A DNA stretch of 64,000 nt, taken from assembly GCA_009692045.1 (NCBI GenBank), contig SIAA01000002.1, positions 1 to 64,000 on the forward strand, written 5' to 3'. Made by a program: the position numbers and the translations under genes. The DNA is from Phycisphaerales bacterium (GTDB taxonomy: Bacteria; Planctomycetota; Phycisphaerae; Phycisphaerales; SM1A02). The notes under the pieces are model-generated. The model did not search any database, was not told the DNA's origin, and saw only the letters and a list, made by a program, of their open reading frames with translations. Within the stretch, counting starts at the first letter, position 1. Every line of letters starts with the position of its first letter. Shown in pieces: positions 4,829 through 55,000 of the stretch.

Positions 4829-6037
4829 ATGAAACCCCCAGAAGTAACGGTTATCGCGGGCATTCCCGCCCAGAACACCGCGCTGTACTGGGCCATCCGC
4901 TTCAGCGCCGGCGACCCCGCCGCGTTCATCGACTTCGGAACTGGGGGAGTTGTCTCGGTCCCGAGCAGGGGGAGCAACACTAGTGTCTGCGCTGTTGCGC
5001 GAACTCGGCGCATCCTCATCGTCCGTGACATCGAGATGGAGAGAGCGCGGCGGAGCGCGCGTGTCGACTCTGTTCACAGTCCGAGTGAGTTCACTCCAGA
5101 TGGAGGCTTCGCCAGTGATCGGGAGACGGCGACCGCGCAGGCGCTTGCCGAGTGTCTGCGCCGGGCGGACGTAAAGGCGGTGCGCGCCGATCGAACGCTG
5201 GCTCTGGTGTACGCCGAGCAACTTCGGCTCAGCGGTATCGCGATCACATACGACGCGGACCTCGCTGTCGCGGGTCGCCGCTGCAAGGATGAGCAGGAGA
5301 TCGCCTGGCTAGGTGAGGCGCAGGCGGCGACCGAACGCGCCATTCGCATGGCGTGTGAGACGGTTGCCCGCGCACAGGCGCAGGGCGATGGCGTGCTGCT
5401 TGCGGGCTCAGAACCGCTGAATTGTGAGCTTCTGCGCCGCCGCATTGACCTGCAACTTCTCGCCGAGGGGTATGACAATCCGGTTTGCATCGTCGCCAGC
5501 GGCCCGCGCGGAGCGGACTGCCACGACCGAGGCAGCGGTGTGATCCGCACGGGCGAACCAGTCATCATCGATGTCTTCCCTCTCAATCGCACCACGCTCT
5601 ACAGCGGTGATTGCACTCGATGCGTGGTTCACGGTGCCGTACCTGATCAAGTGTGTCGCATGCATGCGGCCGTGCTGGCCGCCAAGCGCGCCGCGATCGC
5701 GGCAACCAGGGCCGGTGTGACCGGCGAATCGATCCACGCGGTGACAGCCGCAGAGATAACTCGCGCTGGGTATCAGATGGGGATGCCGCCCAAAGATGCT
5801 CCCGACTCGTGGTGCGGAATGGTGCACGGCACCGGTCATGGCATCGGTCTCAGCGTCCATGAGCAACCGCTCTTGGATAAGGGCGGCCCCGCGTTAGTCG
5901 AAGGCGATGCCATCACCATTGAGCCCGGGCTCTACTGCAAGGCGATCGGGGGAATCCGCATTGAGGACATGGTGATCGTCACCAAGTCAGGCTGCGTGAA
6001 CCTCAATACCTTGCCGGAAAGCCTTGAGTGGTGCTGA
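4829..6037 (+). CDS. M24 metallopeptidase, Xaa-Pro aminopeptidase type
   Basis: A 402-residue cytoplasmic pita-bread-fold peptidase. The metal ligands of family M24 are visible: the first Asp in IIDVFPL, the second in YSGDCTR, the His in GTGHGIGLSVHE, the Glu in IEPGLY and the last Glu in GGIRIEDMVIV. The roughly 170-residue N-terminal domain is the creatinase-like half found in Xaa-Pro aminopeptidases and absent from methionine aminopeptidase, which is encoded separately at 62405-63220. It should release N-terminal residues preceding proline, though dipeptidase or creatinase-like activity is possible. Confidence 0.88.
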   Translation: MKPPEVTVIAGIPAQNTALYWAIRFSAGDPAAFIDFGTGGVVSVPSRGSNTSVCAVARTRRILIVRDIEMERARRSARVDSVHSPSEFTPDGGFASDRETATAQALAECLRRADVKAVRADRTLALVYAEQLRLSGIAITYDADLAVAGRRCKDEQEIAWLGEAQAATERAIRMACETVARAQAQGDGVLLAGSEPLNCELLRRRIDLQLLAEGYDNPVCIVASGPRGADCHDRGSGVIRTGEPVIIDVFPLNRTTLYSGDCTRCVVHGAVPDQVCRMHAAVLAAKRAAIAATRAGVTGESIHAVTAAEITRAGYQMGMPPKDAPDSWCGMVHGTGHGIGLSVHEQPLLDKGGPALVEGDAITIEPGLYCKAIGGIRIEDMVIVTKSGCVNLNTLPESLEWC

Positions 6038-49060: not shown

Positions 49061-50179
49061 TTACTTCAGCAGGGCATCGAGCAGTTGGACGATGCCCTTT
49101 CCCTGAGTGGCAATCGTTTCCATGATTGGTCGGCCATCTGCGATGTCGAGAAGTTCGCGCACGAGCTGGGCCTCGCCTGCGTAATCGGCCTTGTTGACCA
49201 CGAAGATATCGGCAATCTCGAGAATGCCTGCTTTATCCATCTGCACCGAATCTCCCATGCCGGGCACCACTACCACCGCGGTGCGATCAACATGGCGGCG
49301 AATCGCAACATCATTTTGACCAGCACCAACTGTTTCGATAAGTAGAGTGTCGAAGCCAGCCGCACCGATGAGTCCGATGATGGAATCCAGCGTTGAGTAA
49401 TCCTCGCCCGCGATGGCCAGGCTTCGATAGAAAACCGCCTCGTCCACGGCGTTGAAGTCAACCCGCAGCCGATCTCCCAGGAGCGCGCCGCCGGTGATGG
49501 GACTCATGGGATCAAACGCCACCACGGCAATGCGCTGTGAGCGCCTGACAGATTCGGCGGCCATCGCCGCTACCAAAGTGGACTTGCCTGCGCCCGGCGC
49601 CCCGGTGATGCCGATTACCCGAGCGCTTCGGCGCAGGGGGGTGCCAGCGGGTAGACGCCCGGCGTGTGCGAGGGAAATCAGCCGCGCCAGCGAGGCGGAG
49701 GGTGGTCCGGTAGTGAGGGGCGCGTAGGGGCAAACTGCATCCCGGACCGCACCCACTATCTCATCGAGCCCAGTTCCCGTGTGGAATACACGACGGACAC
49801 CTGCGTGTATGAGTTTGGGGACATCTTCCTGAGGGATGATTCCCCCCACATCGATGACAATGTCACCGCGGCCAACTTTGCCGCACTGCTCCACGAGCCG
49901 AGGAACCAGAACCAAGTGAGAGTTGCTCATCATCGAGCACGAGAGGCAGTCGGCGTCCTCATCGCGCGCTGATATGGCGAGGCTGCGCGGCGTCTGCCAG
50001 AGTCCGCTGTAGATCACATGAATGCCACTATCACGCATCATGCGGGCAATGAGCTTCACGCCGCGGTCGTGCCCGTCGAGCCCCATTTTCCCCAGCAGAA
50101 CGCGGGGTCGGTGGCTCAGATCCGAGCAGCGATCCAGCTTCTGTATGGAGGTCGTGGGATCAGGCAGAGCGCGTGGCAT
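49061..50179 (-). CDS. Fusion of B12-binding domain and MeaB-type GTPase, lacking a mutase domain
   Basis: A 372-residue protein. Residues 22-150 are a methylmalonyl-CoA-mutase-type cobalamin-binding domain (MGLDGHDRGVK with the cobalt-ligand His37; DIVIDVGGIIPQEDVPKL). Residues 185-372 are a MeaB-like G3E GTPase: Walker A GAPGAGKST (193-201), IETVGAGQND, IFVVNKAD. The order equals the first two domains of IcmF (isobutyryl-CoA mutase) but it stops before the mutase domain, and it also lacks the C-terminal dimerisation arm of stand-alone MeaB. It should load or protect a cobalamin-dependent acyl-CoA mutase encoded elsewhere. Confidence 0.9.
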   Translation of the reverse strand: MPRALPDPTTSIQKLDRCSDLSHRPRVLLGKMGLDGHDRGVKLIARMMRDSGIHVIYSGLWQTPRSLAISARDEDADCLSCSMMSNSHLVLVPRLVEQCGKVGRGDIVIDVGGIIPQEDVPKLIHAGVRRVFHTGTGLDEIVGAVRDAVCPYAPLTTGPPSASLARLISLAHAGRLPAGTPLRRSARVIGITGAPGAGKSTLVAAMAAESVRRSQRIAVVAFDPMSPITGGALLGDRLRVDFNAVDEAVFYRSLAIAGEDYSTLDSIIGLIGAAGFDTLLIETVGAGQNDVAIRRHVDRTAVVVVPGMGDSVQMDKAGILEIADIFVVNKADYAGEAQLVRELLDIADGRPIMETIATQGKGIVQLLDALLK

Positions 50180-50272: not shown

Positions 50273-50920
50273 CTACTCCGCTTCTGTGTCAGCGATCGAT
50301 GCCGATTCAATGACCGTCGCCGTTTCTGTCCACTTCCCAGGAAAGAATCGCTGGGCCAGCGCGCCCGCGATGAGGTTCACATGCAGATGTTTGTAGTCAT
50401 CAAGGAGAAAACTTCCTTGCTGAGTCTGAATCGTAACTATGGACTTGCTCATCCAGCGGCTCATGTCGATACTAGTCACCTCGTTCGCGCTAATCACTAT
50501 TCCATCAATGATCAGCGAACCATCTGCCTCTAGGGATATGCGTTTGCGACTTGCCGTCACAATCGTCCATAAGACAAATGGTGTTCCCAGCACACCGCAC
50601 CCGATGAAGTAGACCCAGAACTGCAGGAGGCTGTCATACGCTGGCGGCCTGGCTGGCGGCGCATTGGCGTAGGTATCCAGAACTGACCTTGCTGATTCAT
50701 ACCGACCGACTTCCTCGGCAGTGAGTGCTCGAGTGCCCTGCAATGTTTGCAGAGAGTTGCTCGCTTCGCCAGCGGCTTCATACTCATTGGCTGCCGCGAG
50801 CCTGGCGGGAATCGTCACCCAGTAGTCCCAGGCGCCCCATGCGCCCAATACAAAGCAGAGAATGGCATAGCCCAGATTCCACCACTTGAATCTAGGTTGC
50901 AGTTGGGTCACGATTCGCAT
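50273..50920 (-). CDS. Two-TM membrane protein with PH-like C-terminal domain
   Basis: A 215-residue protein not recognised. TM1 is at about residues 15-33 (LGYAILCFVLGAWGAWDYWV), followed by a helical periplasmic part rich in Ala and Glu. TM2 is at about 100-122 (FWVYFIGCGVLGTPFVLWTI). The C-terminal cytoplasmic domain (RISLEADGSLIIDGIVI, SKSIVTIQTQQGSFLLDDYK) is PH-like in strand pattern. A TAGACT hexamer 10 bases before the ATG suggests leaderless expression. Confidence 0.8.
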   Translation of the reverse strand: MRIVTQLQPRFKWWNLGYAILCFVLGAWGAWDYWVTIPARLAAANEYEAAGEASNSLQTLQGTRALTAEEVGRYESARSVLDTYANAPPARPPAYDSLLQFWVYFIGCGVLGTPFVLWTIVTASRKRISLEADGSLIIDGIVISANEVTSIDMSRWMSKSIVTIQTQQGSFLLDDYKHLHVNLIAGALAQRFFPGKWTETATVIESASIADTEAE

Positions 50921-50930
50921 GATTGTTTCT

Positions 50931-50936
50931 AAGTCT
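50931..50936 (-). promoter_or_regulatory. -10 element (TAGACT) for the PH-like gene
   Basis: TAGACT on the minus strand lies 10 bases before the ATG at 50920 with no ribosome site. Confidence 0.5.
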
Positions 50937-50951
50937 ACACCCTCAATGAAG

Positions 50952-50986
50952 AACCAGCCGCAGCGGCCTTGGCGCTACGGCTGGTT
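50952..50986. terminator. Strong hairpin, possible terminator
   Basis: AACCAGCCG pairs with CGGCTGGTT (9 bp). Inside it AGCG pairs with CGCT, leaving a 7-base loop. On the minus strand it is followed by TTCTTCATT, a weak T-rich stretch, so it could end a minus-strand RNA from the nrdJ side. It lies 15 bases upstream of the PH-like gene's -10. Confidence 0.5.
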
Positions 50987-51055
50987 TGAGGGGGTCGCAG
51001 ATGCTTCCCCAAACTGGATCATCCGCGAAAAGTCACGGCCATTCGGGACGGATCA

Positions 51056-51334
51056 CCTGCGCGCAGCTTGCTGCTTTGCGCAGGGGTTGAACTCCACCAG
51101 TTCCGTGTCGGTTCAACCAAGGCAGGCGAGTATCCGTTCGCCTACCGATTCGTCAAAGCCCTGAACGAATGCCATCACCTTCGCGGATTATTGCGGGATA
51201 CGACAGGTGTCGGAGTGAAATCTGTCGCGATCCCTAGGCGGTGCCCGCGATCCTTGCGGACGGGCGGCAAGCATCGTGCAGGCCGCGTCGATTATGGCAA
51301 GGGCATTTGAACCCCTTACGGGGGTGGCCCTTGC
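51056..51334. ncRNA. Hairpin-rich non-coding block, candidate structured RNA
   Basis: The 360 bases between the hairpin at 50952 and the nrdJ stop hold no credible gene but at least six strong helices in series: CCTGCGC/GCGCAGG with inner GCAGC/GCTGC (51056-51084); GGTTGAAC/GTTCAACC (51085-51118); AGGCGA/TCGCCT (51124-51143); ATTCGT/ACGAAT (51148-51170); GGGAT plus CGACAG with CTGTCG plus ATCCC (51195-51234); and GCAAGGGC/GCCCTTGC with inner CCCC/GGGG (51297-51334). It does not match tmRNA, RNase P, 4.5S or 6S patterns that I can recall. The strand is not settled; minus would make it the nrdJ 3' region or a processed RNA. Confidence 0.45.
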
Positions 51335-51346
51335 GGGGGGTTCCAC

Positions 51347-54300
51347 TCAGCTGCAGCCCATGCTCTGGCCGCAGTTGAGGCATCTGTAGCAAGTGCCGTT
51401 GCGAACGGTGATCGAGCCGCAACCATCACATGCGGGCGCATCGCCCATCAGTTGCGCGGTGGTTTGGTCGAGCACGCTCTTGGTGAACTGCTCAGTATGA
51501 GAGTGCGAGAGAGGTCCATCGAGATAGGTGTCGGTCGTTGTGGAGGAGGTCGAGACGATCACTTTGACTCCATCTTGAAGTGGTGTCCTCGGTGCAGCGG
51601 TAATGGAGCGGTCGAGATGAACACTGGGGTTCGAAACGGTCCTCTCCTCTGCGAGATGGGTGGACAGGATGCGATCGTGGATCGCCTGGGGCGAAGTTGG
51701 GACGAAAGTCCGATTGGAGAGATGACCTGATTGATCGATGCATGCTGTGTCCTCCTTGACTGGTGTGTTGTGGGCATCGGCGCCTCCTTGCCGCCTAGGC
51801 GAGTTGGCTTCGCGGTATCCGGGAATGAACTGCATTCCGAACCAGCGAAAGATGTAGTCGACTAGGCTCTTGGCGAAGGGGATTTCGTCGTTGGTAGTCA
51901 TCCCCATCGGCTCAAACCTCTGATGAGCGAACTTATTGACGAGGCTCTCAACCGGCACGCCATACTGAAGTGCCACGCTGATGGCGGTTCCGAGTGAGTC
52001 CATCAAACCGCCAATGGTCGAGCCTTCCTTGGCCATGGTGATGAACAACTCGCCGGGGCGACCATCGTCATAAATGCCAACAATGAGATAGCCCTCGTGG
52101 CCGCCCACATTGAACTTATGGGTGATGCTGCGCCGTGTGTCGGGCAGCCGGCGCCTGTTGGGGCGTTCGATGACGCGCTCCACAATGCGCTCGACGATGC
52201 GCTCCGTTACCAGAACTGCAGTCGGTGCTGCCGCTAGCACCGGTGCGGCGCTGGCTGCCATCACATTCTCCGCCGCTGCTGCTGTCCTAGTGCGGGACTC
52301 GCTGGCGCTATCCTCCTTCGACTCAGTCGAGTCGGCTTTGGAGGAAAGAGGCTGACTCAACTTGCAGCCGTCACGGTAGAGAGCATTGGCCTTGAGTCCG
52401 AGCTCCCAGCTCAATCGGTAGCAATCGGCGATGTCGGTCTCGGTCGCCTCGTTGGGCAGATTGATGGTCTTACTGATGGCGCCAGAGACGAATGGTTGCG
52501 CCGCAGCCATCATCTTGATGTGACCCTCGGGAGCGATCAGTCGTACCCCAAGAGCGCCGCAGCGATTGGCGCAGTCGAACACAGGCAGATGGGATTCTCT
52601 GACATGGGGGGCACCCTCCAGCGTCTGGCTACCGCAGATGCGGCGATTCAGTCCCTCGCACTGCTGGCGGGTGAATCCCAAGGTGCGAAGTCCGTTGAAG
52701 GATTCATCGCGGCGCGCCTTGGTGACATCAATATTGCCGGCTCGCAGCAGACGCTCCGGTACCGACCAAGCGCTGAATGCGTGGTCCAGTTTGATCACCG
52801 TAGGCAGGGAGTTTTCCAGGGCAAGCAACTCTTCGTTGGTGTATCCCTTGGACAAGAGCGCCTCGCGTAGAGACAGACCGCTGGTTGAGGTGCCATCTTC
52901 AGTTGGGAGGGCCGTGTCAAGGCTGAGCGTGCCCATCACATGAACGATGATGGCATCGATCTGCGCCTGGGAGTAACCAAGAGTCTTGAGTGCGGGACGG
53001 AGAGACTGATTGGCGATCTTGAAGTGTCCGCCACCGGCGAGCTTCTTGAACTTGGTGATGGAAAAGTCTGGTTCAACGCCAGTGGTATCGCAGTCCATCA
53101 AGAGTCCGATGGTTCCGGTGGGCGCGATCACCGTAACTTGAGCATTGCGAAAGCCGTGGCGCTCGCCCAGAGTCAGAGCATCGTCCCAAGCCTGGAGTGC
53201 CGCCGAGAGAAGGCTCTGCGAGTTCGTCAAACCTATGCGGCTCCCTCCTAGAGTGCTGTCCGAGCGATCGCCAAACTGAGAGTGATCGAGGGGGACGGGT
53301 CTGGTTCGCAGAGACTCCCATTCATTGGATTGGCGAGGGAGTCCCTGCGCTGCACGGCGGTGGTTGCGCAGAACCCGCATCATGCTTTCACGATTGGTAG
53401 AGAAGCCGGCAAACGCGCCATGCTCCTTGGCCATCAAGGCACTTGCGGCGTAGGAGCGTCCCGTCAATACCGAGGTGATCGCACCGCACACGGCTCTACC
53501 CATGTCGCTGTCGTAGGGGACTCCCGCCTGCATGAGCATGGCACCCAGATTGGCGTAACCAAGCCCGAGCGTGCGGTACTTCCAACTGAGTTCGGCAATC
53601 TCGCGGGAGGGGAAGGCCGCCATTAGCACCGAGATTTCCAACACCACTGTCCACAGGTTCACCGCATGTTCAAAGCCTTCGACATCAAAAGTGCGGCTGT
53701 CGGCGTCGTAGAACTTGAGCAGATTGATCGAGGCCAGATTGCAGGCCGTGTTGTCGAGGAACATGTACTCGCTGCAGGGATTGCTGGCGTTGATGCGACC
53801 GCCAGCGGGGCAGGTGTGCCAGTCATTGATGGTTGAGTCGAACTGCACGCCGGGATCAGCGCAGCGCCAAGCGGCGTAGTTGATCTGCGACCAGAGAGTA
53901 CGGGCGGGAATGGAGCCAGCTGGCTTGTCGCTGGTGCGCTGACGAAGATTCCATGTTGCGTCAGCATCCACTGCGTCGAAGAACGCATCGCTGAGGCGAA
54001 CGGAATTGTTGGAGTTCTGTCCGCTCACCGTGCCGTAGGCCTCACCATTGAAGTCGTAGTCCAACTTCAAGCCCAGCCTCGCCGCTACATCGCGCTGCGA
54101 CTGCGGTAGCACCCTCAAGCCCTCAACCATGGCACTCACCTTGAGTTCTTCGCGAACCTTCCAGTTGATGAACTGTTCGATATCCGGATGATCAATGTCG
54201 AGGCAGCACATCTTGGCGGCACGGCGGGTCGTTCCGCCAGACTTGATCGCACCCGCGGCGCGGTCGCCCACGCGCAGGAAACTCATCAGGCCCGAGGACT

Positions 54301-55000
54301 TGCCACCTCCCGAGAGCGACTCCTGCTCGCCACGCAGGCTGGAGAAGTTCGTTCCCGTACCGGAGCCGTACTTGAAAAGGCGCGCTTCGCGAACCCAAAG
54401 GTCCATGATGCCGCCGTCGTTGACGAGATCATCGTTGACTGATTGGATGAAGCAGGCATGCGGCTGGGGATGGCTGTAGGAGTCGCTAGCCAAGCTGGCT
54501 GCACCTGTGCAATGATCGGCAATCCAGTGCCCTTGGGCCGGGCCGTTGATTCCGTAGGCGTAGTTCAGACCGGTGTTGAACCACTGGGGGCTGTTGGGTG
54601 CAGCTGCTTGGGTGAGCAGCATCCACGAGATTTCATCGTAAAAAGCCTGAGCATCGAGAGGCGAGTCGAAATAACCGTGCCGCTCTCCCCAATGCTTCCA
54701 GCATCCAGCAAGGCGGTGGACGACTTGGCTGGCAGACTGCTCTGGGCCGAGAACCGCATGGCCATTTTCGTCGAACATCGCTGCGCCGCTGGCATCGACT
54801 TGCGGCACGCCAGCCTTGCGGAAGTACTTGCTTAGAACGATGTCAGTTGCCAGTTGGCTCCAGTCGCGCGGCACTTCAGCGTCCACCATCTCGAAGACGG
54901 TAGAGCCGTCAGCTTTGAGGATTCGGCTGGTGCGCTTGGTCCATTCGACAGTATGGAAGACATCCTTGCCCTGAGTGGTAAATCTTCGCGCGATTTTCAT
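51347..55000 (-). CDS. nrdJ: Adenosylcobalamin-dependent class II ribonucleotide reductase
   Basis: A 1217-residue enzyme reducing ribonucleotides to deoxyribonucleotides with B12 as radical source. Recognisable blocks are AAPNSPQWFNTGLNYAYG, HACFIQSVNDDL, LFKYGSGTGTNFSSLRG, RRAAKMCCLDIDHPDIEQFI, NPCSEYMFLDNTACNLASINL and ATVIAPTGTIGLLMDCDTTG-like (VTVIAPTGTIGLLMDCDTTG). An Ala/Ser-rich insert near 910-970 contains ERIVERIVERVIERP repeats, followed by a TSCPD-like region. The end has two CxxC pairs (CDGCG, CYRCLNCG) forming a zinc finger. AAGGA precedes the ATG. It follows dcd by 107 bases. Confidence 0.96.
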   Translation of the reverse strand: MKIARRFTTQGKDVFHTVEWTKRTSRILKADGSTVFEMVDAEVPRDWSQLATDIVLSKYFRKAGVPQVDASGAAMFDENGHAVLGPEQSASQVVHRLAGCWKHWGERHGYFDSPLDAQAFYDEISWMLLTQAAAPNSPQWFNTGLNYAYGINGPAQGHWIADHCTGAASLASDSYSHPQPHACFIQSVNDDLVNDGGIMDLWVREARLFKYGSGTGTNFSSLRGEQESLSGGGKSSGLMSFLRVGDRAAGAIKSGGTTRRAAKMCCLDIDHPDIEQFINWKVREELKVSAMVEGLRVLPQSQRDVAARLGLKLDYDFNGEAYGTVSGQNSNNSVRLSDAFFDAVDADATWNLRQRTSDKPAGSIPARTLWSQINYAAWRCADPGVQFDSTINDWHTCPAGGRINASNPCSEYMFLDNTACNLASINLLKFYDADSRTFDVEGFEHAVNLWTVVLEISVLMAAFPSREIAELSWKYRTLGLGYANLGAMLMQAGVPYDSDMGRAVCGAITSVLTGRSYAASALMAKEHGAFAGFSTNRESMMRVLRNHRRAAQGLPRQSNEWESLRTRPVPLDHSQFGDRSDSTLGGSRIGLTNSQSLLSAALQAWDDALTLGERHGFRNAQVTVIAPTGTIGLLMDCDTTGVEPDFSITKFKKLAGGGHFKIANQSLRPALKTLGYSQAQIDAIIVHVMGTLSLDTALPTEDGTSTSGLSLREALLSKGYTNEELLALENSLPTVIKLDHAFSAWSVPERLLRAGNIDVTKARRDESFNGLRTLGFTRQQCEGLNRRICGSQTLEGAPHVRESHLPVFDCANRCGALGVRLIAPEGHIKMMAAAQPFVSGAISKTINLPNEATETDIADCYRLSWELGLKANALYRDGCKLSQPLSSKADSTESKEDSASESRTRTAAAAENVMAASAAPVLAAAPTAVLVTERIVERIVERVIERPNRRRLPDTRRSITHKFNVGGHEGYLIVGIYDDGRPGELFITMAKEGSTIGGLMDSLGTAISVALQYGVPVESLVNKFAHQRFEPMGMTTNDEIPFAKSLVDYIFRWFGMQFIPGYREANSPRRQGGADAHNTPVKEDTACIDQSGHLSNRTFVPTSPQAIHDRILSTHLAEERTVSNPSVHLDRSITAAPRTPLQDGVKVIVSTSSTTTDTYLDGPLSHSHTEQFTKSVLDQTTAQLMGDAPACDGCGSITVRNGTCYRCLNCGQSMGCS

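Follow-up and report, generated by a model that had tools for sequence, protein, structure and literature searches.

A structured RNA downstream of nrdJ

The intergenic region downstream of nrdJ in the window, as we term the whole 64,000-nucleotide stretch of DNA analysed here, encodes a conserved RNA on the minus strand, which is also the nrdJ strand, and this RNA is strongly supported as a previously uncatalogued structured RNA family that is absent from Rfam. The region (50921–51346) extends from the nrdJ stop (51347, minus strand) to the start of the next gene (50920, minus strand) and contains no gene; on the RNA strand the longest stop-free stretch is 40 codons. A conserved small protein was considered for this gap and rejected, as no sense frame in the window RNA is longer than 40 codons and the helices covary. 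The nrdJ gene itself (51347–55000, minus strand) codes for an adenosylcobalamin-dependent (class II) ribonucleotide reductase, with matches to Pfam PF02867 and PF08471 and to NCBIfam TIGR02504 (NrdJ_Z) above cut-off. It is followed by the RNA gap, then by a gene for a protein of 215 aa that matches neither Pfam nor NCBIfam (50273–50920, minus strand), and then by a gene for a MeaB-type GTPase. This MeaB-like GTPase (49061–50179) has a B12-binding domain fused to its N-terminus and lacks the mutase part, and is also found next to nrdJ in the congener. Homologues of the 215-aa protein are present in 163 of 181 genomes of the family, often adjoining a MeaB-type protein with a B12-binding domain.

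A sequence-only reading had described a hairpin-rich non-coding block after nrdJ at 50952–51340, and this description holds: no gene lies in the gap, the described hairpins are present (I1, I4, I7, I9, I10 and I11 are found in the gap), and the fold on both strands is more stable than that of every dinucleotide shuffle (z = -5.97 for the plus and -6.55 for the minus strand). Its coordinates are essentially right, the RNA spanning roughly 51334 down to 50937, and its list of hairpins fixed no strand. In the congener, the gap folds with z = -8.0 on the nrdJ-sense strand versus -3.4 on the other, and the sense strand gives the more stable fold in 29 of 33 homologues.

The approximate extent of the whole RNA is 50937–51334 on the minus strand (the 5' end is not mapped), and from 5' to 3' it is composed of 5' hairpins, a long-range helix P1, a three-hairpin junction core and a terminator-like hairpin, a layout shared with the congener gap. 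All features described here are on the minus strand. Hairpin A (51297–51334; GCAAGGGC..GCCCTTGC) directly follows nrdJ, lacks a U-run and is not conserved in sequence; hairpin B (51244–51264; CCCG..CGGG) is seen in the fold, contains AAGGA and is lineage-specific; and hairpin C (51195–51234) has in its loop region a CUCCGAC sequence (51209–51217) that is conserved in an alignment of 36 homologues. The P1 helix is formed in the fold by CCGCGAA (51180–51186) and UUCGCGG (51023–51029), corresponding to CGCGAUGGG..CCCAUCGCG in relatives. Within it lies the junction core (51049–51149), in which helix P2 (51147–51151 with 51050–51054; family consensus CGGUC and GRCCG) closes three hairpins, with all five P2 pairs compensated among 75 distinct sequences. 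Both folding and covariation define H1 (51121–51146; GGUAGGCGA[ACGGAUAC]UCGCCUGCC) and H3 (51056–51084; CCUGCGC..GCGCAGG), the latter being variable in length in the family, and H2 (51085–51118; GGUUGAAC..GUUCAACC) covaries in all eight of its main-stem pairs.

The RNA ends in a terminator-like hairpin (50937–50995) with a weak U-rich flank. The proposal in the sequence-only reading that 50952–50986 is a minus-strand terminator fits with this, in that these positions form the inner stem of the hairpin, and the minus strand is the one that encodes the conserved RNA. The terminator region in relatives consists of a strong G+C stem followed by UUUU, and the congener gap ends in a hairpin with UUUUUCUUU. 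At a number of loci (L032, L033, L035, L036, L141, L143, L160 and others) a pyrimidine stretch of 14–23 nt (CUUCUCUUCCCUCCCCCC) is positioned just before the terminator, and in one relative (G017, locus L016, after position 5400) the RNA is followed by a terminator hairpin repeat (GCTGCGGCGGGCCCTTTTCTTT) and tandem CGCGCCCGAGGGCGCGA units.

Distribution, covariation and known RNA families

Gene order is unchanged in the congener, which is the sole further genome of the genus, and its gap measures 427 nt compared with 426 nt in the window; the regions 3' of nrdJ in other genera share a common core, GGUCGGCGAGUGGAUGGACCCUCCUUGCACUGGUCGGACGAGCACGGA. A profile of nine sequences, run with nhmmer, matched 27 of 31 nrdJ loci at E<1e-5, in each case 3' of nrdJ and in the same orientation. 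In contrast, blastn recovered no true homologue in relatives, because the RNA sequence has diverged; short blastn matches in two genomes (G057 and G019, RNA positions 306–342) lie within coding sequence and were discarded as chance. The core structure was written from alignments, and a first covariance model, R1, was used to align 28 homologues from which the window and congener were left out; a second model, R2, was built from these. Although blind to both, R2 finds the window and congener RNAs, and its match at 51049–51149 on the minus strand (41.3 bits, E 1.7e-6) is the sole match in the window genome. One copy of the RNA was found in each of 114 of the 181 genomes of the same family, and a search over 397 genomes of the class gave no match outside the family, with the proviso that the stricter filters used for these family and class searches may overlook weak members. 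Three loci missed by the model (L018, L028 and L034) nonetheless retain a similar terminator region. In L028 and L034 the first 450 nt after nrdJ contain four AAAGGA/CAAGGA sites together with the same type of terminator, and this region probably represents a divergent version of the RNA, all of whose loops have turned to A-A-GGA or similar.

The position of the RNA is constant, as it lies directly 3' of nrdJ and on the same strand in all 39 genomes in which both are on one contig, at about 70–560 nt from the nrdJ match. The 215-aa protein gene is found 3' of the RNA in only part of the relatives, and the gene in this position changes in both kind and strand, including NuoA-like genes, lipoprotein genes and genes on the opposite strand (L018, L032), such that nrdJ, the constant upstream neighbour, is the sole constant neighbour of the RNA. 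This variability also leads us to reject a 5' regulatory element. A terminator-bearing riboswitch for the 215-aa protein and MeaB gene pair, perhaps sensing cobalamin, would suit the gene arrangement of the window and congener, and that of a few relatives, where both genes follow the RNA and both MeaB and NrdJ are linked to B12, but with nrdJ alone constant and the Rfam cobalamin riboswitch models unmatched in the window and relatives, we consider it highly improbable.

The helices of the core are supported by compensatory changes. In the 28-homologue R2 alignment 21 of the 28 base pairs have double changes (11.9 ± 1.8 when shuffled) and the covariation score is 0.320, compared with 0.189 for shuffled alignments and 0.06–0.12 for slid structures; although these counts lean towards the structure because the alignment was fitted to it, this is a strong signal, far above both controls. 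With 75 distinct sequences, compensation is seen at 24 of 28 pairs, with 289 double-changed cells against 94 ± 13, and de novo folding of the alignment with RNAalifold predicts 16 pairs, 13 of which are compensated. The downstream region of nrdJ is thus both conserved and subject to compensatory change in relatives, and the suggestion in the sequence-only reading that it may be a new structured RNA withstands the alignment and covariation test that had been proposed for it. A second suggestion, that of a decayed mobile element, does not, since the RNA is present as one copy per genome at a fixed location with a conserved structure; its sequence is single-copy in the window genome and gave no match among plasmids and phages.

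The covariance-model search of Rfam 15 proposed alongside this test was also run and gave no credible match for the gap (E up to 5), the whole window (at gathering thresholds), the congener or six relatives (E up to 1). The earlier statement that no common large bacterial RNA fits agrees with this. RNase P RNA and tmRNA, which are of a similar size class, and SRP RNA were rejected as identities of the nrdJ-linked RNA because each is encoded at another locus of the genome, where they score 258, 144 and 47.7 bits, respectively, with curated cut-offs. No description of this RNA was found in the open-licence literature.

A-N-GGA loops and CsrA

Both H1 and H2 present a conserved motif in their loops, ACGGA in H1 (51133–51137) and CACGGA in H2 (51102–51106). 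In the first alignment, A16, G18, G19 and A20 of H1 are invariant, and C45, (A46), G48, G49 and A50 of H2 nearly so. The letter between A and GGA is free: with one representative from each of 31 genera, it is T in 22, C in five and A in three for H1, and C in 12, G in seven, T in six and A in five for H2, with one exception in each case. The stems bearing these loops covary, while the loop letters A and GGA stay fixed. The high-affinity site for CsrA/RsmE is an ANGGAX hairpin loop in which N is variable (PMC4005645), and CsrA/RsmA proteins read the A and the GGA but not the N, best when these are positioned atop a stem (PMC4005645; PMC7652899). As judged from their sequence, A-N-GGA loops with a free N are the recognition signature of CsrA/RsmA. 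The two motifs are about 30 nt apart.

Additional copies of the motif occur elsewhere in the RNA. Across the whole RNAs of the 31 genus representatives, A-N-GGA is present 140 times, whereas 50.4 copies are expected and the antisense strand has 48, an enrichment that in part reflects the repeated counting of the two conserved sites; each RNA has two to seven copies, with a mean of 4.5 against 1.6 expected, where some five or more would be typical of an RNA of the CsrB/RsmZ class. The window RNA has four and is not enriched by count, RNase P RNA and tmRNA of the same genome having three each, so that the argument for CsrA rests on conservation of the motif rather than on its number. In single-sequence folds the GGA is fully unpaired in 54 of 144 cases, and many others are partly paired.

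A candidate protein partner is encoded in these genomes. CsrA (PF02599) is present in 177 of the 181 genomes of the family, including all 104 of good quality. Most have two, a typical CsrA of about 85 bits encoded beside fliW, and a divergent paralogue of about 47–56 bits that has a short insertion and occurs in almost every genome of the family. In the window genome and several genera (g5, g17, g59 and g60) only the divergent CsrA is present, without FliW, and the RNA is kept, which makes the FliW-independent paralogue the best candidate partner. The likely partner is therefore the divergent CsrA not linked to FliW, the sole CsrA of the window genome (G000, contig C37, 8756–8920, L070), which aligns over its full length with Escherichia coli CsrA and retains MLxxTRR at its N-terminus as well as the VHR strand. 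Counting against a role for CsrA, the 67 family genomes without an R2 match nearly all encode it. The FliW-linked CsrA also seemed to be lost together with a change in H1 (GUGGA to GUGAA/CGAA), but on the nrdJ tree this amounts to just one change, which provides no independent support.

Comparison with RNAs that act on CsrA reveals both similarities and differences. As in CsrB/CsrC and RsmX/RsmY/RsmZ, A-N-GGA is displayed in hairpin loops, there is a 3' terminator, and the genome encodes CsrA, whereas the nrdJ-linked RNA has two conserved and zero to five variable sites in place of the 22 GGA of CsrB, and it differs from the CsrB/RsmZ group in its conserved junction architecture, its linkage to nrdJ and in a host that is not a gammaproteobacterium but probably belongs to Planctomycetota, judging by an LpxC-FabZ fusion, a PEP-CTERM-like tail in a relative and comparable traits. 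CsrA-sequestering sRNAs have been identified in Gammaproteobacteria only, and TwoAYGGAY and Bacillaceae-1 are proposed CsrA binders outside that group, as predictions only (PMC4333381). These two (RF01731 and RF01690, respectively) likewise have two hairpins with AYGGAY-type loops and predicted CsrA binding, but their helices, size and host group are different, and neither model matched any of six relatives at E<1, nor did TwoAYGGAY match the window at E<5. A precedent is RsmU of Xanthomonas, an RsmA-sequestering sRNA derived from an mRNA 3' UTR (PMC7694677), which is similarly located 3' of a protein-coding gene, has GGA motifs and lacks an Rfam match (PMC7694677). Its host gene is comEA-like, however, and the sequences are unrelated by description; moreover, RsmA binding has been shown for RsmU, and was retained by a GGA mutant (PMC7694677), whereas for the nrdJ-linked RNA we infer binding of CsrA.

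Proposed role and alternatives

We consider it reasonably probable, on the basis of the conserved loop motifs, that this structured RNA of about 300–400 nt binds CsrA and probably sequesters it. The RNA would be transcribed with nrdJ or just behind it and end at its own terminator hairpin, with its hairpin loops displaying A-N-GGA at the two invariant core sites in H1 and H2 and at variable extra sites. The H1 and H2 loops could clamp one homodimeric CsrA, one loop per subunit, and the extra sites could bind further CsrA. Accumulation of the RNA would then lower the amount of free CsrA, and mRNAs targeted by CsrA would be released from translational repression. With the RNA made from the 3' end of nrdJ, the activity of CsrA would be linked to the expression of this gene, and, given that the RNA lies behind nrdJ, its abundance may serve as a readout of nrdJ transcription.

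A 3' regulatory region of nrdJ had been raised in the sequence-only reading, and this may be how the RNA acts, because it is always directly 3' of the gene. In its strictest form, the RNA would be a cis-acting element of the nrdJ mRNA without a role in trans, its fold and terminator setting the end, stability or processing of the transcript, and it could do so with CsrA bound in cis. We regard this as unlikely, though it is the strongest of the alternatives: the invariable location and orientation, the terminator-like end and a sigma-70 scan in which no good promoter of the RNA's own was found are all consistent with it, but the distance to nrdJ varies widely, the conserved structure far exceeds the needs of a terminator or stabiliser, and the invariant loop motifs with their free letter suggest a specific protein.

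That protein need not be CsrA, and the RNA might instead form another ribonucleoprotein or a ligand-binding aptamer, with A-N-GGA incidental. High conservation of the primary sequence of the core (GGUCGGCGAGUGGAUGGACC..GCACGGA) and the single copy per genome fit this notion, and more letters of the core are conserved than a mere sponge would require, which makes another partner possible. In both loops, however, the letters read by CsrA are kept while the unread letter varies, and CsrA co-occurs everywhere, such that we consider a partner other than CsrA to be improbable. Slightly more doubtful still is a base-pairing small RNA, in which the pyrimidine-rich segment that precedes the terminator (CUCUUCCCUCCCC) would be an anti-Shine-Dalgarno seed and the remainder a scaffold. 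In roughly half of the lineages the long pyrimidine run significantly exceeds that of shuffled sequences, but it is lacking in the window RNA (7 nt, 6.7 expected) and many others, whereas the A-N-GGA loops are universal.

Returning to CsrA sequestration, we advance only tentatively a wider reading in which an RNA outside Gammaproteobacteria may antagonise the FliW-independent CsrA, often with the FliW-linked CsrA as a separate protein, so that control by RNA and by protein would be split between the two, and in which the output may be tied to a B12-dependent reductase and hence to the supply of DNA precursors. The joint action of FliW and sRNAs in any species is described in a review as still to be determined (PMC7652899). 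Many of the genomes studied here have FliW, two CsrA paralogues and the RNA, and others have the RNA and one CsrA only; if the RNA binds CsrA, the question of joint action would be directly testable in them. The nrdJ-linked RNA adds a well-supported structured RNA family to a lineage with hardly any described regulatory RNAs, and if the assignment to CsrA is right, it would function like the CsrB/RsmZ-type RNAs, which have been reported from Gammaproteobacteria only.
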